DNA from: a virus
Direction: 5' to 3' (one strand)
Virus record (IMG/VR): IMGVR_UViG_3300025073_000161
Location: 1 to 24,853 of that record
DNA: 24,853 nt
The notes under the pieces were generated by a model, which ran no database searches, had not been told where the DNA came from, and worked only from the letters and a program-made list of their open reading frames with translations. Position 1 is the first letter of the stretch, and each line of letters starts with the position of its first letter. A program made the translations under genes and the position numbers. This document shows, one piece after another, positions 5,934 through 24,853 of the stretch.

Positions 5934-8279
5934 TTATACCAGATACGACCCGTTAATAATTAATCCGCCTGCTGCCTCAATATCAATTTCGATGCGAGTG
6001 CTATTCGACTGTTGGATGTAAAGGCGAATCTGCGTACTTCCGCCAATGAACATGGCGATAGGGATATATCCTGCGGTTGTGGCATAGGCAATGTTAGAAA
6101 ATTCTACTGACAACGGAAACAGATAGGAGGAATTCGCCGAATAAGGGAGTCCGGTGTTGATGTACAATTTCCCTGTTCCTGTGTGCGCTGTCCATGAAAT
6201 ATCAATATTAAAGAAAACTCTATTCCCGATACGAGTCCATGCGCAAATTTCTGTTACAGGTGTATATGTTCCTGACCCTGTTGATCCAATCACAACCGGC
6301 GTAACAGACCCATTTTCAAAAATTGAACTGCTGGAATACAGGCTGAACTCGTGGCTGACGAGCTGCCCGAGAGTGTCGCTTTGCACTAGGTTGTTTGCGC
6401 CATTAAATCGCGTTTTCGTTCCGCCTGTTTTTGCATTAAGCATCACATCGCCAGCGAACAGGCAATTAGTGGCGAACATTTCCGCGTTGCTTCCGCTGAA
6501 GTGACCATATGCGATAGACTCGCCGACTAGTCGAACGGAATCCATTGTAATGTTCGCGTTAGACAGATTTGCCAGCGCGCATAACCCCGGTTCTGAGCGG
6601 ACATTGCGCAAGGAAACTTGCTGCAATGCGCCGATTGAAATGTTGATTGATTGACCTACCTCAGTCCATGTTACCGAGCCATCGACCACGGTTCCGTTAA
6701 AACTGGTCGGCCAAGTTGGCTCTGTGCCTGCGCTCGTGCCGCCAGTTGTGCAAAGATAAAAATGGCCGTTTGCTTTTGCGGCAGTAGGTTTGATATACAC
6801 CCCTTGCGTGTAAGGAGTTGTTGCAACCCAAGCATCTTCCCACAGGTTATTGCTCGGGGTCGAACGGTAATCAGAAACCAGCAAGTCAGACACATCAAGC
6901 TCGCGCGCATTGCCGCCCAAGTAAACGCCATTGTCGAAGTTGGAGATTACGCCGGATACTTTCGCGCCTTCTGCATCAGACAATATAATGCCATAGCGCA
7001 CCGGATCACCAACTGCACGAGTATCAACAGGATTGCGCAGCGCCAAGCGTGTGATTTTCGGATTCGCTGCATAGGATACGCTACCGCTTACTGTAGTCTG
7101 CAAATCCAGAGTAGAGTGCCCGACCACATAATTCGATGTAATTAAATCAATGACACAATTATCATACTCATAAATCGTTTTGATGAAGTCATAGTACCCG
7201 CCATCATTTGATAGATTATGACAATCCACTACCGGGTTCTTCTGCGCCACCGTTCCCAAGGTAACGAACACATGCCCTGACGTATTCACGCCGGCGCCCA
7301 GAGAATGAGCATTGTGAACGCCGCCTTGCGTGATAATCGCCACTCCGCCAGTGAACGCGGTCAGCGGATTAAGTTGTCCGCCGAGCAGGTCAAGAATTAT
7401 CGGGCTTCCAGTTACACCAAGGTTTATCGCCGCCCCGACAGAATACGTTTTTTCTGGGTCGCCGTAGATTCGCCGCAGGTTGATAGATTCAGCGTAATCA
7501 ACAGCCGCTTGAATCTGCGTTTGCGTAGCTGTGCCATCGGATTTTGCGCCGAACCAGTCAATGCAGAACTCTCCGCTGTGCTCCCACACCCAGGCCGCAG
7601 AGCCATCGCCTCCTGTCGGAACGATAATCGAACCGCCGTTATCAACGTATGTGCCTGGAGCTGCACCTGTAAATCCTACGCGCACCGGGCCACCACCACC
7701 ATCTCCTGCGGCGTAGTAGCCGCTTACTTGCAATAATCTCCCGCTCACAACAGCTACGTTCCTCAATGCTGCGATTGTCGCAATAGCATTTGGCTGAACA
7801 GTTGTACCTATCGCCGCAGCAACCAACGCGGTTCCTGTTACGCCAGCGGCAGGCAGGTTGTTGCAGTTTGTGAGCGCACCGGATGCCGGAGTGCCAAGAG
7901 CGCCCCCATTTACGACTGGAGCTCCAGGACTACCCACTGCGACGGCCAGCGCTGTTGCCACGCTGGTGCCAAATCCAGATACCCCGGTGGAAACAGGAAG
8001 ACCTGTGCAGTTCGTAAGCGTGCCGCTGGCTGGCGTGCCAAGCGCTGGTGTTATCAGTGTCGGCGATGTCGCCCTTACAGCGCTACCGGTGCCGGTTGTC
8101 GTAATTGCTTCGACGGCTGTTCCACCGCTATTTATTGCCGTGATTTTGCCGCCATTGCCAGATAGAACAGGAAGCTTGTCGCCGATTACTTCAACCTTTT
8201 CAAATTCTGCCCTGAAGGTATCGGATTTAATCAATGAGCCTTGGGCGGGGAAAGTCGAATGGTCGTAATATTCATTCAT
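5934..8279 (-). CDS. Tail fibre/tailspike with pectate-lyase-like beta-helix
   Basis: A 781-aa receptor-binding protein. The N-terminal part carries two copies of a tail-fibre repeat, LGTPASGTLTNCTGLP at about 80-95 and a near copy at 128-143, within Gly/Ala/Thr-rich stalk sequence. Residues 241-265 (DWFGAKSDGTATQTQIQAAV) are the signature start of pectate-lyase-superfamily beta-helices common in tailspikes. A parallel beta-helix-like region with many Gly/Asn turns follows to about 470. Residues about 484-541 form a distinct inserted module (WVATTPYTQGVYIKPT, then TEPTWPTSFNGT, then VDGSVTWTEVG) of the type found as repeated carbohydrate-binding or spacer units in phage fibres. The C-terminal 160 residues are beta-rich and may be the receptor-binding tip. 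Catalytic residues for depolymerase activity cannot be assigned. It begins 14 bases after the HNH gene. Confidence 0.85.
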   Translation of the reverse strand: MNEYYDHSTFPAQGSLIKSDTFRAEFEKVEVIGDKLPVLSGNGGKITAINSGGTAVEAITTTGTGSAVRATSPTLITPALGTPASGTLTNCTGLPVSTGVSGFGTSVATALAVAVGSPGAPVVNGGALGTPASGALTNCNNLPAAGVTGTALVAAAIGTTVQPNAIATIAALRNVAVVSGRLLQVSGYYAAGDGGGGPVRVGFTGAAPGTYVDNGGSIIVPTGGDGSAAWVWEHSGEFCIDWFGAKSDGTATQTQIQAAVDYAESINLRRIYGDPEKTYSVGAAINLGVTGSPIILDLLGGQLNPLTAFTGGVAIITQGGVHNAHSLGAGVNTSGHVFVTLGTVAQKNPVVDCHNLSNDGGYYDFIKTIYEYDNCVIDLITSNYVVGHSTLDLQTTVSGSVSYAANPKITRLALRNPVDTRAVGDPVRYGIILSDAEGAKVSGVISNFDNGVYLGGNARELDVSDLLVSDYRSTPSNNLWEDAWVATTPYTQGVYIKPTAAKANGHFYLCTTGGTSAGTEPTWPTSFNGTVVDGSVTWTEVGQSINISIGALQQVSLRNVRSEPGLCALANLSNANITMDSVRLVGESIAYGHFSGSNAEMFATNCLFAGDVMLNAKTGGTKTRFNGANNLVQSDTLGQLVSHEFSLYSSSSIFENGSVTPVVIGSTGSGTYTPVTEICAWTRIGNRVFFNIDISWTAHTGTGKLYINTGLPYSANSSYLFPLSVEFSNIAYATTAGYIPIAMFIGGSTQIRLYIQQSNSTRIEIDIEAAGGLIINGSYLV

Positions 8280-18210: not shown

Positions 18211-19623
18211 CTATAACCCCATGCCGGGAACGGTTGATTTAAACGCTATGATGCGCGGCTGCTGCTCACGCATCGTATTGATACTGGCCGACCTGAGCAT
18301 CATGATCGCGTAACGTGTAGCGCTCATGATGTCGTCACATTCCTTTACGATTTTTCCATCCTTGCGGTGATATAGCCTAAACTCTTCCATCCAATCATGC
18401 AAATGGCGCGCTACTTTGAGCCGCCCTGTCTGCATCCTGTCCAGGATATCCATAATCCCGGCCTCGACTCCGTTGCCACCATCCTCAAATGTGGCGCGCG
18501 TTTTGAGCATTTTTACGCCATACTTGCGGTATTGCTCGGCCAATTGCTCTCCGGAACCTTTATCGTGTTGCAATCCATCATGCGGCCATGCGACAGGTAT
18601 CCACTCGCCTTTTGCCTTGATAGCCAGGCTGTGTATTGCCGGAGTCGCCTCCTTTACCCTGTAGCAGTCGTAAACGTGGACTGTATCGGTATCCCTGTCC
18701 CACGCCAGCCACGCGGCAGCGGTCGGGTGATCCCATCCAAAATCGATACCGCAGATGCGCGGCCAGTGCGGCGGGATTGGCACGGCCGACTCGGTGATTG
18801 TTGCTTCATCAACCGGGAAAACACGCCCAGACCCTAGTGTTGGCGTTCCCATCGCCCTTGCTTCGCGCTCGTGTGGCAGATAGCCTGCGATGATGCGCTC
18901 TCGCTGCTCATCAGTGTAATGCTCTGCATCGTAGATGGTCATACTGGTGACGTGCGTACCGGGCACTTTATCGACCAAAAAACGCCGAACAACGTCGCTC
19001 ATACCGAGGAGCGGCGTAAATGTGAGCCATACAATCCCATCCGTGGCCTGTGTGCGGGTGAGTCCCTCAGCGTAAATCTCTGGGCTTGGCTCCTCGTCGA
19101 ACCAACAAAAATCCAATGTTTCGCCTTGGAATCGCTCCCGCCCCTGATCGTAGGATTTGAACGTAATCCGGCTCGTGCTACCTGCGGTGTGGCGCACAAG
19201 CACGGTTTCAACGGAATCGGCCACACCGTGCGCCGACCGTTTGATGTCGAGGATGTCCGCCTTTGGTATCGCGCCAGTACCCCAACTGCCCGGCTGGCCG
19301 AGTAGTAGGCGCTGGCAGGTATCGCGTGTGACCTGACTGGTGAGTGATGCCGCCCATCCGACTGTCGGCGCATCCCAGCGCGCACCATCCCACCAATCTG
19401 GATACCGGCCTGTGAGGTGCATTGCGGCCTCGTACGCCGCAGAAAACGTTTTGCCCAACTGGTTGCCCGCCTTGAGTAGCCGCTCCCTGATTGCAGGATC
19501 AGCGCCAGCGCGATGGAAATCACGCTGCTTCGGGTACGGTTTGTATCCGTACAGTTTGAGTTCGCCCAGCTTGCGCGTGGCCTCAGTGAGTAGTGCCTGA
19601 GCTATTTCCGGCGATAAATCCAC
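18211..19623 (-). CDS. terL: Terminase large subunit (ATPase-nuclease)
   Basis: The packaging motor, pumping DNA through the portal and cutting it. Start GTG 19623 lies ten bases after GGAG, inside the end of the small-subunit gene (41-base overlap). The ATPase domain has a Walker A variant AGNQLGKT at residues 52-59, Walker B LDFCWFDEE at 170-178 and the coupling motif TFTPLLG at about 201-207. The nuclease domain has Asp294 in CGIDFGWDHP, a second acidic site at Asp349 (AWPHDG) and a third at Asp430-Asp431 (KECDDIMSATRYA), the three-acid RNaseH-like arrangement. The 470-aa length is normal. Packaging strategy (headful or cohesive) cannot be told from this sequence alone. Confidence 0.93.
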   Translation of the reverse strand: MDLSPEIAQALLTEATRKLGELKLYGYKPYPKQRDFHRAGADPAIRERLLKAGNQLGKTFSAAYEAAMHLTGRYPDWWDGARWDAPTVGWAASLTSQVTRDTCQRLLLGQPGSWGTGAIPKADILDIKRSAHGVADSVETVLVRHTAGSTSRITFKSYDQGRERFQGETLDFCWFDEEPSPEIYAEGLTRTQATDGIVWLTFTPLLGMSDVVRRFLVDKVPGTHVTSMTIYDAEHYTDEQRERIIAGYLPHEREARAMGTPTLGSGRVFPVDEATITESAVPIPPHWPRICGIDFGWDHPTAAAWLAWDRDTDTVHVYDCYRVKEATPAIHSLAIKAKGEWIPVAWPHDGLQHDKGSGEQLAEQYRKYGVKMLKTRATFEDGGNGVEAGIMDILDRMQTGRLKVARHLHDWMEEFRLYHRKDGKIVKECDDIMSATRYAIMMLRSASINTMREQQPRIIAFKSTVPGMGL

Positions 19624-22212: not shown

Positions 22213-22755
22213 TTACCTATCAAAATTTAAAATCTGCTCTACGACACTATCCAATTCTTCACGCCCAGCATATTTTGTGCATACCTCGCGCAGCAGAACA
22301 TCTATCACGGCGCTGTACAGTTGTTCAAATTCATCCTGCACCATCTTTGCGAAACTGATTGATTTTGCCTCCAATTTCATCCGGCCTTTAAGATCGAACA
22401 CCTGATCGTAGTACCCGGCAAGAATGGTTATGTCTGAACGGAACCGCTCGAAATTTTTCTCAACTGGCTTGCCTTTGTGCGTCTTGTGTTTCCGGTCTGG
22501 TTCCCACGCATCAAAGCCGACCTGAAACAGCGCGAACATTTTCCGGTGAAATTTTGGGTTGCGCTGGAAGATGAATTCAACAGTGAAAATTTCACCTGCA
22601 TCCATGCGCTTGATCTGCGTCCACAACCTTTTCCACATTTTTTTATCAGCATCGCTCATGCCGCACAAGCAGCCGAAAAGGAAGCCTGATACAGCCTCAG
22701 CAACCGCTGAGATAGGCCACGGGAAGCCGGTGCGGACGATAGTTATGCGACTCAT
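22213..22755 (-). CDS. DUF1367 family phage protein, 180 aa
   Basis: Start ATG 22755 overlaps the upstream stop (ATGA). Family hallmarks are clear: EIFTVEFIFQRNPKFHRKMFALFQVGFDAWEP at about 55-86, GKPVEKNFERFRSDITILAGYYDQVFDLKG at about 95-124, and EAKSISFAKMVQDEFEQLYSAVIDVLL at about 129-155, ending ELDSVVEQILNFD. DUF1367 proteins are common in prophages of Proteobacteria near replication or recombination genes. Their molecular function is not established; a role in DNA metabolism is suspected from context. The first 45 residues include a hydrophobic Cys-containing stretch (AVSGFLFGCLCG) less typical of the family. The gene is in the right-hand operon, driven by the promoter at 22973-23000. 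Confidence 0.88.
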   Translation of the reverse strand: MSRITIVRTGFPWPISAVAEAVSGFLFGCLCGMSDADKKMWKRLWTQIKRMDAGEIFTVEFIFQRNPKFHRKMFALFQVGFDAWEPDRKHKTHKGKPVEKNFERFRSDITILAGYYDQVFDLKGRMKLEAKSISFAKMVQDEFEQLYSAVIDVLLREVCTKYAGREELDSVVEQILNFDR

Positions 22756-23007: not shown

Positions 23008-23046
23008 CGTTAAAAAGTTTATTTTTGTGAGCGGTGTACATCATAC

Positions 23047-23053
23047 GTTATGC
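23047..23053 (+). other. Left junction of the cassette array (core GTTATGC)
   Basis: The core GTTATGC opens the first cassette and matches the R'' core GCATAAC of the attC at 23362. No L' arm, inverse core or recognisable attI structure lies to its left, only the AT-rich promoter region of the right-hand operon. Either this is a secondary recombination site in the phage, or the neighbouring attC has been deleted. Confidence 0.65.
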
Positions 23054-23236
23054 CCCAACACGCCAAGGCCGCCCGGCCAAGATGCAGTCGGTGTCGTCAA
23101 TCCGTTGCGCCTGCGCTTGCAAAGGCTTTCGCAGTGCATCGGGCATCTGGTTCAGCGTCTGCCAGTTCTTTTCCTGCTGGCAACCGCCGCACTCCCCGTT
23201 GCCGAGGCAGTAGTGGGTAATTCCGTTCTCGCTCAT
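23048..23236 (-). CDS. Cassette gene: small Cys-rich protein, 62 aa
   Basis: Start ATG 23236 overlaps the stop of the upstream 45-aa gene (ATGA). The N-terminal region has Cys10, Cys16 and Cys19 (HYCLGNGECGGC), suggesting a small metal-binding knuckle, followed by a Gln/Arg-rich helix (NQMPDALRKPLQAQAQRID). The TAA stop is provided by the core GTTATGC that opens the cassette, read on the opposite strand, so the gene fills the cassette exactly to its edge. Small Cys-motif proteins like this are frequent in phage early regions; the function is unknown. Confidence 0.75.
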   Translation of the reverse strand: MSENGITHYCLGNGECGGCQQEKNWQTLNQMPDALRKPLQAQAQRIDDTDCILAGRPWRVGA

Positions 23237-23370
23237 TGCGGCCTTTCCTCTTCGTCAAAGGTCATTTCTTCCGGGTGCGGCACGCTGTCGTGCGCAATCA
23301 CCCCATCCTCATCGGCCGGCAGGAACCGCCCGCACACCAGGCACCAGTACCCATCGTCGTGGCATAACAT
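23233..23370 (-). CDS. Cassette gene: small CxxC protein, 45 aa
   Basis: ATG 23370 lies inside the attC at 23362-23433, and the core GCATAAC encodes part of the first codons (MLCHDD). The product has Cys3, Cys10 and Cys13 (YWCLVCGRF) and His4, a possible zinc site, followed by an acidic tail (DEDGVIAHD, TFDEEERPQ). There is no clear Shine-Dalgarno. It starts five bases after the Lar-like stop, so translation is probably coupled. It overlaps the 62-aa gene by ATGA. Together the two form the whole coding content of the first cassette. Confidence 0.7.
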   Translation of the reverse strand: MLCHDDGYWCLVCGRFLPADEDGVIAHDSVPHPEEMTFDEEERPQ

Positions 23371-23433
23371 TTCGGTCAACGCGGACGCTCCGCCGATAAA
23401 GCCGGCTCCGCGCCGGTTACCTTCACGTTAGAG
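23362..23433 (+). other. attC site 1 (72 bp)
   Basis: R'' GCATAAC (23362-23368) and R' GTTAGAG (23427-23433) flank an imperfect hairpin. The left arm reads GGT[C]AAC[G]CGG[A]CGC against GGT AAC CGG CGC on the right, giving three extra unpaired bases at C23377, G23381 and A23385. The extra bases being in the left arm set the orientation as plus. The site encodes the last 16 or so residues of the Lar-like protein and the start of the 45-aa gene. Confidence 0.88.
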
Positions 23434-23681
23434 CGCTTGTTCCAGTGATCGGTAGCCACGCCCTCCAGCCACGCCATGCCGAACCGCATTGCCGCATCAG
23501 TCCGCTGCACGCGGCACTGTTTGCATTTGATTGTCACGCTTCTTTTTGCCGAGAATTTATTGCCTTTGTGCAGCATTTCAGGTTCGCCCCCGCAAAACGG
23601 GCATGGCAAAAGGCGCTCTAACTTTCCGCTCAACTCAGACCCGCCTACAGCGTCATCGTTTGCATATTGTGGTGTGTTCAT
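23376..23681 (-). CDS. Cassette gene: Lar-like restriction-alleviation family zinc protein
   Basis: A 101-aa product with the Lar-family signature: LLPCPFCGGEPEM with Cys27 and Cys30, IKCKQC with Cys53 and Cys56, and the closing DHWNKRSN near 78-85. The four cysteines form a zinc ribbon. The founding member of the family (Rac prophage Lar) relieves host type I restriction; many other members are uncharacterised. Start ATG 23681 overlaps the 82-aa stop (ATGA) and has GGAG nine bases upstream. About 22 N-terminal residues are encoded inside attC site 2 and the last 16 inside attC site 1, so both ends of the protein are made of recombination-site sequence while the conserved core is cassette-specific. 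Anti-restriction function is plausible but not shown. Confidence 0.85.
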   Translation of the reverse strand: MNTPQYANDDAVGGSELSGKLERLLPCPFCGGEPEMLHKGNKFSAKRSVTIKCKQCRVQRTDAAMRFGMAWLEGVATDHWNKRSNVKVTGAEPALSAERPR

Positions 23682-23738
23682 AGTTTTTTGCTCCGTTCGT
23701 CGTTCACTGTTGGCGGGCTGGTTAGCTCCACGTTGGGC
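23616..23738 (+). other. attC site 2 (123 bp, long VCR-like)
   Basis: R'' CTCTAAC (23616-23622) and R' GTTGGGC (23732-23738). The left arm GCT[C]AAC[T]CAG[A]CCCGCC pairs exactly with GCTAACCAGCCCGCC from the right arm, apart from extra bases C23631, T23635 and A23639. The R'' is the reverse complement of GTTAGAG, the opening core of the same cassette at 23427. The central part is long, giving a length similar to Vibrio VCR sites. It overlaps the junction of the Lar-like and 82-aa genes. Confidence 0.82.
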
Positions 23739-23926
23739 GTCACCGGATATGCTACGTTCAACGCATCACGCAGCTTCCCCAATCCGTCCACTCCCCACAC
23801 AACCACACTTTCCGCTGGTTGATATGTATGCTCACTTGCATCTGCTGGAGACACAATCGTCATTAGGTTTTTATCTGTGTTCAGCCTTGCAATACACCAC
23901 CCCAAATCTATTACGGTTATCATCAT
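23678..23926 (-). CDS. Cassette gene: unknown protein, 82 aa
   Basis: Start ATG 23926 (a second ATG follows at 23923) with GAGGAG upstream. The product has a hydrophobic beta-strand start (MITVIDLGWCIARLN), a second strand (KNLMTIVSPAD), EHTYQPAESVVVWGVDGLGKLRDAL and a polar tail. Its last 20 or so residues (from NVELTSPP) are encoded inside attC site 2. The gene begins about 25 bases left of attC site 3. No family is recognised; the short alternating strand-helix pattern suggests a small globular domain. Confidence 0.75.
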   Translation of the reverse strand: MMITVIDLGWCIARLNTDKNLMTIVSPADASEHTYQPAESVVVWGVDGLGKLRDALNVAYPVTPNVELTSPPTVNDERSKKL

Positions 23927-23948
23927 CTATCTCCTCGTTGAAAAAGCC

Positions 23949-24011
23949 GCCCAACCCGGCGGTCAAGAGGGATCGCCCAAAAGCGGGCGACCCCTTACCT
24001 CTACGTTGGGC
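23949..24011 (+). other. attC site 3 (63 bp)
   Basis: R'' GCCCAAC (23949-23955) and R' GTTGGGC (24005-24011), extended outward to a perfect 10-bp inverted repeat (GCCGCCCAAC/GTTGGGCGGC). The left arm GGT[C]AAG[A]GGG[A]TCGCCC pairs with the right arm except for extra bases C23964, A23968 and A23972. The loop is AAAA. The CAAGAGGGA stretch and the CCCCTTA before R' closely resemble Vibrio VCR arms. Confidence 0.92.
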
Positions 24012-24193
24012 GGCAGTAGCGCGTGGTTGGCGCGGGCCTTTGCCCATCGCACGAATTCCTCGGGAGATGCAAGCTCCTGCCATTTTCGCCAATCCGCATC
24101 GACGATGGCCTGTAACGTTTCTCGCATACGCATGTTGTCCGCCACCAGTGCCGCTTCGATGTCGATTTTCAGTATTGTTTCAATAGCTGCCAT
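23963..24193 (-). CDS. Cassette gene: unknown helical protein, 76 aa
   Basis: The open frame can be extended to a TTG at 24232, but that start lies in attC sequence without a ribosome site. ATG 24193 follows GGGGGG and gives MAAIETILKIDIEAALVADN. The protein is helical with a Trp-rich centre (ADWRKWQELASPEEFVRWAKARA), a pattern common in small phage proteins. The last 15 or so residues (from NVEVRG) are encoded inside attC site 3, where the stop also lies. The gene starts 22 bases left of attC site 4 and fills its cassette. The family is not recognised. Confidence 0.75.
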   Translation of the reverse strand: MAAIETILKIDIEAALVADNMRMRETLQAIVDADWRKWQELASPEEFVRWAKARANHALLPPNVEVRGRPLLGDPS

Positions 24194-24214
24194 ATTCCCC
24201 CCATGGTTAAAGCC

Positions 24215-24298
24215 GCCCAACCCGGCGCTCAAGTTCGTTCCGCCTTCGGCTCCACGGGACTGCGCAAAAGCGCGCAGCCCCTTAGCTACACGTTATGC
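24215..24298 (+). other. attC site 4 (84 bp, with a 22-base insertion in the left arm)
   Basis: R'' GCCCAAC (24215-24221) and R' GTTATGC (24292-24298). The cores do not match each other but match their own cassettes, as expected in an assembled array. The left arm reads GCT[C]AAG, then 22 extra bases (24234-24255), then GGG[A]CTGCGC; the right arm complement is GCTAAGGGGCTGCGC. The insertion replaces the middle extra base and can form a small CCG/CGG hairpin of its own. The loop is AAAA. Confidence 0.88.
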
Positions 24299-24459
24299 CC
24301 CACCTTCGCGGCCTTGATCTTCGCCCGAAGGAAATACCCGCCACCAAGTTGCAGGCACTTTGCCCATTCAGCATCAGTCGCCCGAAAGTTCCGATTGCGC
24401 ATCTTCTCACCGTCTTTTGCGATGGGTGGACGGCCTTTGGTTACTGTTGATTTAGCCAT
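24286..24459 (-). CDS. Cassette gene: small basic protein, 57 aa
   Basis: ATG 24459 lies inside the end of the 53-aa gene (19-base overlap) and the stop is in attC site 4. The product is basic: MAKSTVTKGRPPIAKDGEK, then RNFRATDAEWAKCLQLGGG, then YFLRAKIKAAKVGHNV. The (F)RATDAEWAK-xx-LGG-x-FLR pattern recalls small phage proteins predicted to have a strand-helix-helix, ribbon-helix-helix-like arrangement. If that is right it could bind DNA, perhaps the palindrome in its own promoter, but this is only an inference. The last four or so residues are encoded by attC. Confidence 0.72.
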   Translation of the reverse strand: MAKSTVTKGRPPIAKDGEKMRNRNFRATDAEWAKCLQLGGGYFLRAKIKAAKVGHNV

Positions 24460-24602
24460 GTTTCATATTCTGTTGTTGTCTGGAAAACCATCCAGCCGTT
24501 GTCTACTGGTGCAATCTCTGTGAAGTCAACACCATCATCCACGCATGCATTGTGTACATCCTCAAGGGTGGCATAGTCCCGATCACTAAAAAATTTGCTC
24601 AT
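24441..24602 (-). CDS. Cassette gene: small acidic protein, 53 aa
   Basis: ATG 24602 has GGAG eight bases upstream and lies about 25 bases after the predicted start of the cassette promoter. The product is acidic (MSKFFSDRDYATLEDVHNAC, then VDDGVDFTEIAPVDNGWMVF, then QTTTEYETWLNQQ), with a short helix followed by strands ending in a Trp-containing helix. It is the first gene of a two-gene, self-promoted cassette with a basic partner overlapping its end. A small acidic protein plus small basic protein with a palindromic operator recalls toxin-antitoxin or regulator pairs, but neither protein is recognised. Confidence 0.72.
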   Translation of the reverse strand: MSKFFSDRDYATLEDVHNACVDDGVDFTEIAPVDNGWMVFQTTTEYETWLNQQ

Positions 24603-24633
24603 GATATTTACTCCGTTTGGTTAATGTGCAAAC

Positions 24634-24662
24634 AGTATAATTATGTAATTACATAATGTCAA
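24634..24662 (-). promoter_or_regulatory. Strong cassette-borne promoter with 18-bp palindromic operator
   Basis: On the minus strand, TTGACA (24657-24662) and TATACT (24634-24639) are exactly 17 bases apart, close to the sigma70 consensus. The spacer is a perfect palindrome, ATTATGTAATTACATAAT (24640-24657), so a dimeric repressor binding there would block the promoter. It reads leftward into the 53-aa gene and onward through the cassette genes. It begins one base after the stop of the rightmost partial gene. Confidence 0.82.
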
Positions 24663-24663
24663 G

Positions 24664-24853
24664 CTATTTCGCAAGTACATAAACGGCGGGGCATAACCCT
24701 GCATTCGAGCGGGACAGGCCAAAAGCGGCCTGCCCCTCAATTTGAACGTTAGCCGCCTTGAGTCCGGCAGCATGCCCCACCCAGTAACCAGTGATAAATA
24801 GGTCTAGTGCTCCTTCTGGAAGTTCTAATGGCGCTTCTGATATTCCGTCTAGC
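24664..24853 (-). CDS. Partial phage gene running into attC site 5, N-terminus outside window
   Basis: The last 62 codons of a leftward gene whose start lies beyond the window. The visible part is acidic and then has GYWVGHAAGLKAANVQ, a helix typical of C-termini of small phage proteins of about 80-150 residues. From about ANVQIEGQ onward the sequence is encoded by attC site 5 (24691-24754), and the stop lies 25 bases beyond it, directly before the cassette promoter. The read-through tail probably has no conserved function. The family is not recognised. Confidence 0.7.
   Translation of the reverse strand, partial: LDGISEAPLELPEGALDLFITGYWVGHAAGLKAANVQIEGQAAFGLSRSNAGLCPAVYVLAK
24691..24754 (+). 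other. attC site 5 (64 bp)
   Basis: R'' GCATAAC (24691-24697) and R' GTTAGCC (24748-24754). The left arm ATT[C]GAG[C]GGG[A]CAGGCC pairs exactly with the complement of the right arm, ATTGAGGGGCAGGCC, apart from extra bases C24706, C24710 and A24714. The loop is AAAA. R'' matches the opening core GTTATGC of the same cassette at 24292. The R' GTTAGCC opens a sixth cassette that leaves the window. Confidence 0.92.

Follow-up and report, generated by a model that had tools for sequence, protein, structure and literature searches.

Integrons are regarded as bacterial devices. The integron integrase folds the bottom strand of an attC site and cuts it at the G/TT of the R' core, and the polarity of attC normally serves to place cassette genes under the control of the Pc promoter. 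The presence of integrons and attC clusters in phages is already known: Qi et al. 2023 described 17 clusters of attC sites lacking integron integrases (CALINs) and three complete integrons in phage genomes, and gave TJE1 and H101 in the main text as typical same-direction arrays (PMC9892861). A published assay demonstrated recombination of attC sites from phages by IntI1 (PMC9892861). Here, we analyze a cassette array in IMG/VR record IMGVR_UViG_3300025073_000161, a linear fragment of 24,853 bases that was studied in its entirety and is referred to below as the window. With a probability of roughly 0.8, the array is an intI-less integron cassette cluster in a P22-like phage, belongs to a pool of phage cassettes with reversed polarity, and uses an integrase provided in trans. 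All seven open reading frames (ORFs) of the window cassettes, including that of a Lar-like protein, are antisense to attC, unlike the genes of the canonical bacterial cassette.

Two independent methods detected five attC sites in the window; they lie within 1.4 kb, and each is on the + strand. The structural scan employed a pattern composed of R'' YAAC, L'' with one extrahelical base, a complementary L', and R' GTTR. Applied to both strands of all 24,853 bases, it identified exactly these five sites at a score of at least 20, against a background of four matches in 30 dinucleotide shuffles, or about 0.13 per window. A covariance model, the check proposed together with the original prediction of the array, was trained on 56 bacterial attC sites only. 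It matched all five sites with 34.0–79.6 bits; no other match in the window exceeded 9.2 bits, and none on the reverse strand exceeded 8.1 bits. The covariance search recovered attC2 only under default filters. The bottom strand of attC3 folds into a canonical attC hairpin (z -3.9), and that of attC2 folds with pairing of the L boxes. No attC family in Rfam matched the window sites.

In each of the five sites, the L boxes show co-variation (GGT[C]AAC/GTTACC, GCT[C]AAC/GTTAGC, GGT[C]AAG/CTTACC, GCT[C]AAG/CTTAGC, and ATT[C]GAG/CTCAAT), with complementary boxes and the extrahelical C at the same position throughout. The extrahelical base of L'' selects the strand (PMC2727003). In attC4, an insertion is present in place of the middle extra base of attC3 and attC5. 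The opening core of each cassette is the exact eight-base reverse complement of the R'' of its own attC in five of five cases, with three different sequences (p = 0.033 under shuffled pairing). The original prediction had described the common orientation and architecture of the five sites, the insertion in the fourth, and the pairing of the cores, and all of these agree with our results.

A common hairpin architecture in a single orientation could also arise if a hairpin or terminator that has no relation to integrons had been duplicated in tandem. We give virtually no credence to this explanation, since the compensatory differences between L boxes, the unrelated genes in each unit, and the within-unit pairing of cores in three sequences speak against it, and both the covariance model and the recurrence of cassettes with ends at cores, described below, contradict it. 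The earlier claim that separate cassettes were joined by recombination, rather than one sequence duplicated in tandem, is supported. Our results support the identification of the window sites as attC, of the units as cassettes joined at G/TT cores, and of the array as part of a phage genome. The array has the properties of a CALIN: at least two clustered attC sites in the same orientation, the R''/L''/L'/R' architecture, matching cores, and the absence of an integron integrase from the (fragment) record.

The late operon of the window is P22-like and is located on the - strand, with genes encoding the small and large terminase subunits (TerS and TerL), portal, and major head protein. The terminase, portal, and capsid genes within one late operon place the phage among the Caudoviricetes (P22-like). 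The gene for NinB is positioned to the right of the late operon, and the five attC sites are to the right of NinB, so the placement of the array in a phage genome, with phage genes at its left, proved correct. The attI-side end of the array abuts phage genes; the record lacks the other half of the genome. The array extends to the contig end, and its flank is visible on the left only. The record breaks off within a sixth cassette or directly behind it, so five attC sites are a minimum; the array had been predicted to consist of five cassettes, which is right for the attC sites present and a lower bound as a count.

The antisense orientation of the cassette genes to attC was overlooked in the original prediction. 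The codon model gave positive scores to seven of the seven - strand ORFs of the array, and no + strand gene was called in the record. With the cassette genes on the strand opposite to attC, the array is reversed relative to bacterial cassettes and is read along with the phage operon. The codon model was adopted because counting of the longest ORFs, which we dropped as a strand caller, failed to settle the gene strand in GC-rich viral arrays. The strand calls of the codon model agreed with the annotation for 49 of 50 genes of MW202573 and 69 of 71 genes of TJE1 (118 of 121 together).

The reversed polarity recurs in other phages. Viral contigs, mostly fragments, were fetched with two orientation-neutral attC patterns of the Beta-/Gammaproteobacterial type, and a few loci by means of the window cassette proteins; bacterial contigs were fetched with only the narrower of the two patterns. 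Among arrays with at least two attC sites, 20 viral arrays are antisense and one is sense, whereas 50 bacterial arrays are sense and three are antisense (Fisher test by arrays, p = 6e-14). At the level of genes, viral arrays contain 90 antisense and 6 sense genes (94 and 6 after removal of duplicate contigs and addition of L255 and L256), and bacterial arrays 197 sense and 28 antisense genes; genes and arrays are not fully independent in these counts, since cassettes are shared. P12002L and H101 were left out of the polarity scoring, as the scanner missed most of their sites. The only sense viral array (L133, 6269–6808) has a Dam-family methyltransferase between two same-strand attC sites.

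Besides that of the Lar-like protein, eleven antisense cassette genes are backed by homology. They encode five N6_N4 methylases, two Dam proteins (one under the cut-off), a dGTP hydrolase, a helicase, a GIY-YIG protein, and a DUF7448 protein. DNA methyltransferases are a frequent cargo of phage arrays (L081, L086, L087, L102, L116, L138, and L256), and several belong to the N6_N4 family. Such cargo fits an exchange of anti-restriction genes.

The attC sites of the window resemble those of Beta-/Gammaproteobacteria, attC1 aligns with a plasmid attC, and host-derived integron pieces are known in prophages (PMC9892861). The phage might have picked up a piece of a host chromosomal integron, as prophages of Vibrio anguillarum and Shewanella have, or the contig might be a chimera of host and phage. 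We judge this to be decidedly unlikely. The host-derived arrays in the Vibrio and Shewanella prophages retain the sense polarity (L260, L261), whereas the window array is antisense like other phage arrays. The window cassettes match other phage contigs, and their genes all continue the phage operon.

Three of the window cassettes have counterparts elsewhere whose alignments stop at cores. Cassette 1 (23046–23379) aligns with L138 (3778–4114; 83.5%), beginning at an attC core in both; the shared cassette starts at 23046, and the cut in the lone first core is predicted between 23047 and 23048. Cassette 4 (24004–24107) aligns with L089 (3999–4102; 83.7%), ending at the core. Segments of cassette 5 align with L090/L091 (24288–24438; 79.5%) and L092 (24292–24386; 72.6%), and these alignments also end at the core. 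All core-side ends are within about four bases of the R' core. This core-precise sharing provides indirect support only for the view that the window sites may be recombinable by an integron integrase.

The gain of a cassette at attI is evident from L276 and L278, which come from different metagenomes and are identical over attI and intI (1,095 bases) and the next cassette (580 bases). L278 contains one additional cassette of about 523 bases at attI, with the break at GTT, and relatives of this cassette are present in L282 and L286 (88–93%). L277 and L294 have flanks that are 95–97% identical on both sides of the array, and differ completely between the bounding cores. Differences of other kinds were also observed. 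L281 (1–344) and L282 (3288–3683) belong to otherwise identical contigs and differ by about 51 bases in the array region, away from detected attC cores. L119 (7783–8069) and L141 (11533–11862) share 7.8 kb of identical sequence but diverge over a single segment of about 300 bases within the array region.

Intact intI genes are present in other phages. IntI scored over the curated cut-off in 2 of 22 array-bearing viral records, and the two proteins are 54% identical across the common tyrosine-recombinase core. A search with both of them yielded 29 viral contigs with a substantial match, about 25 of which are distinct. Phage structural, packaging, or replication genes are present in 12 of the 14 IntI contigs with scanned proteins; phrog_2 alone missed most of the IntI-bearing phages because they use other terminase families. 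Upstream of phage intI, 49 of 49 attC sites are on the strand expected of a normal integron. Within intI-linked arrays of at least two sites, 62 phage genes versus one are codirectional with intI, that is, they point at intI. The first core upstream of intI is the exact eight-base reverse complement of the R'' of the nearest detected attC in 18 of 21 loci, and in many of the intI loci a conserved attI-like sequence directly precedes this core.

Since a recognizable IntI was found in only 2 of 22 array-bearing phage contigs, it could be argued that the sites are moved by a different phage recombinase that uses similar hairpins. This is very improbable: the covariance model trained on substrates of bacterial IntI fits the window sites, phages with the same layout carry IntI and attI in normal geometry, and IntI1 was able to recombine phage attC sites in the published assay (PMC9892861).

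The IntI tree places the bacterial chromosomal IntI of the control loci in one group and the phage IntI in several; the long branch of L282 was disregarded because its row was in the wrong frame. A single clade of phage IntI is unsupported, with three label changes in the tree, and one origin of phage IntI is neither shown nor excluded. In this small sample, IntI1 (L298) groups beside phage IntI (support 83/91) and not with the sampled chromosomal IntI, a position that we treat as a lead only. In Virus Rctr41k, a phage recovered from an enrichment of methane oxidisers, a gene with the annotation xerD is 47% identical to phage IntI (L258, 4680–5678); no attC cluster was detected nearby.

We hypothesize that the window array is a CALIN in a nin-type early region of a P22-like phage, and that an integron integrase, acting on the folded bottom strand of attC, could excise or insert each of its units at G/TT. 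Because the window lacks intI, the integrase would have to act in trans, and it may be supplied by the host or by a co-resident integrase-bearing phage. The cassettes would form a pool that is passed between phages with the gene opposite to attC. The genes all read with the phage operon and would be transcribed by the phage rather than from the Pc promoter of an integron. In the intI-carrying phages, intI and attI appear to be located at the downstream end of the operon, where new cassettes would enter with their genes pointing at intI, and the useful promoter would be that of the operon.

The attI site is immediately upstream of intI, and attC faces away from that gene; therefore, genes co-transcribed with intI must run against attC. 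We prefer co-transcription with intI as the probable cause of the reversal. Alternatively, the reversal possibly makes the attC bottom strand the non-template strand, which is exposed in transcription, or it possibly reflects a founder effect within a closed pool. We consider it rather probable that phages have an integron class of their own, in which cassette genes are antisense to attC, codirectional with intI, and part of one transcription unit. The shared cassettes of this class would be rich in anti-restriction and DNA-modification genes, which would remain silent in an ordinary bacterial integron that captured them, and phages without intI would use the pool with an integrase in trans.

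Several observations weigh against the window array being a mobile member of a reversed pool. The window, a fragment record, has no match to TIGR02249 or PF00589, and thus contains neither intI nor another tyrosine recombinase. The comparison with other phages, put forward in the original prediction, showed that cassettes recur elsewhere with ends at cores; it uncovered no closely related phage whose array is empty or different. The 80 loci with TerL relatives contained no attC clusters and the search with NinB returned a single relative, at 40%, so that neither search gave an empty-site comparison. TJE1 and L133, which are sense, are exceptions to the reversed polarity. Several window ORFs overlap or cross cassette borders; this is as compatible with a settled operon as with one that is still being shuffled.

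The record without an integrase, the stop and start codons that overlap across cassette borders, and the left-arm insertion of attC4 are what one might expect of an array that was assembled once and is now fixed in the operon, with hairpins that are only mRNA structures. We regard such a relic as unlikely, since five of five sites retain box complementarity as well as the strand-selecting extra base, and cassettes 1, 4, and 5 are present in other phages, in other neighborhoods, with ends at cores.

The features of the window are listed in Table 1. Cassettes 1–5 are 380, 305, 273, 287, and 456 bases long. The Lar-like protein is the sole array protein with a significant family match. Its gene starts within the terminal structure of attC2 and ends within attC1; the C-terminus is thus encoded by the neighboring cassette and would change upon shuffling. 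The ORF of the sixth cassette (24664–24853) crosses the core and ends near attC5, so that attC5 and cassette 5 supply the codons for its final residues. Far from the array, positions 6995–7059 match the Rfam family ASdes with 26.5 bits, below the gathering score of 40, and we dismissed this identity as probably due to chance.

Table 1 Positions of attC sites, cassettes, and genes in the window.
Feature	Position	Strand	Evidence and remarks
Lone first core GTTATGCC	23047..23054	+	Exact reverse complement of attC1 R''; attI-side end of array
attC1	23361-23434	+	Scan 23.0; 34.0 bits; 95% identity to L112
attC2	23615-23739	+	Scan 23.5; 40.0 bits; long variable terminal structure containing start codon of Lar gene
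attC3	23948-24012	+	Scan 24.0; 79.6 bits
attC4	24214-24299	+	Scan 23.5; 41.3 bits; insertion in left arm
attC5	24690-24755	+	Scan 20.0; 66.1 bits
Cassette 1, two - strand ORFs	23048..23427	+ (attC polarity)	Cores on both sides; alignment to L138
Cassette 2, Lar-like gene on - strand	23428..23732	+	Cores; Pfam match
Cassette 3	23733..24005	+	Cores
Cassette 4	24006..24292	+	Alignment to L089
Cassette 5, two - strand ORFs	24293..24748	+	Alignments to L090/L091 and L092
Sixth cassette, start only	24749..24853	+	R' GTTAGCC at 24748, then - strand ORF leaving the record
62-residue ORF, cassette 1	23048..23236	-	Codon model
48-residue ORF, cassette 1	23233..23379	-	Codon model; alternative ATG start 23370; weak zinc-finger-like Pfam match under cut-off
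Lar-like restriction alleviation protein, 101 residues	23376..23681	-	PF14354, 39.5 bits (cut-off 28.6); phrog_599, E 6.7e-11
82-residue ORF, cassette 3	23678..23926	-	Codon model
89-residue ORF, cassette 4	23963..24232	-	Codon model; relative in phage array L089, likewise antisense to attC
57-residue ORF, cassette 5	24286..24459	-	Codon model; relatives in L090-L093; weak Arc-like repressor match
53-residue ORF, cassette 5	24441..24602	-	Codon model
Terminase large subunit	18211..19623	-	phrog_2, E 6.5e-41; phage hallmark on the strand of the cassette genes
NinB/Orf recombination mediator	22213..22755	-	phrog_319, E 1.7e-39; phage gene adjoining array

Cassettes of this type are the kind that spreads antibiotic resistance among bacteria, and the same reversed arrangement is found in dozens of further viruses. 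If our interpretation is true, many phages with the opposite polarity, some of them with an integrase and recent gains at attI, would be using the same chemistry to run a gene exchange of their own. Phages would thereby have a specific means of trading anti-restriction genes, and the determinants of cassette polarity would become directly testable. The interpretation would also bear on the origin of reversed cassettes within bacterial arrays.

The closest described relatives of the window array are phage CALINs (PMC9892861), which are likewise intI-less attC clusters with small cargo genes including methyltransferases. One of them, MW202573 (L081), shares an attC sequence with the window (90% identity to attC5), and in this phage, too, the genes are antisense to attC. 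The main text of PMC9892861 does not mention reversed polarity, and TJE1 is sense in the present analysis too. The complete integrons of that study do not include the reversed, intI-bearing phage arrays described here, and a full-text literature search, with subscription papers and preprints outside its coverage, returned no paper on reversed phage cassettes. The prophages Vibrio Va_90-11-286_p16 and Shewanella M16-3 likewise have intI and attC in a phage record, but their pieces have sense polarity and belong to the host integron (PMC9892861). The attC of the blaOXA-2 cassette, from class 1 integrons and plasmids, aligns with attC1 over 58 bases (82.8%) in the same orientation; however, the blaOXA-2 gene is upstream of attC on the same strand, whereas the window genes are on the opposite strand. 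The chromosomal integrons of Betaproteobacteria and Gammaproteobacteria (Gallionella, Nitrosomonadales, and Methylobacter) share the attC type and the G/TT rule with the window, and their intI-attI-attC geometry equals that of the intI-bearing phages. The genes of these bacterial integrons run with attC and away from intI, whereas those of the phages run against attC and towards intI.

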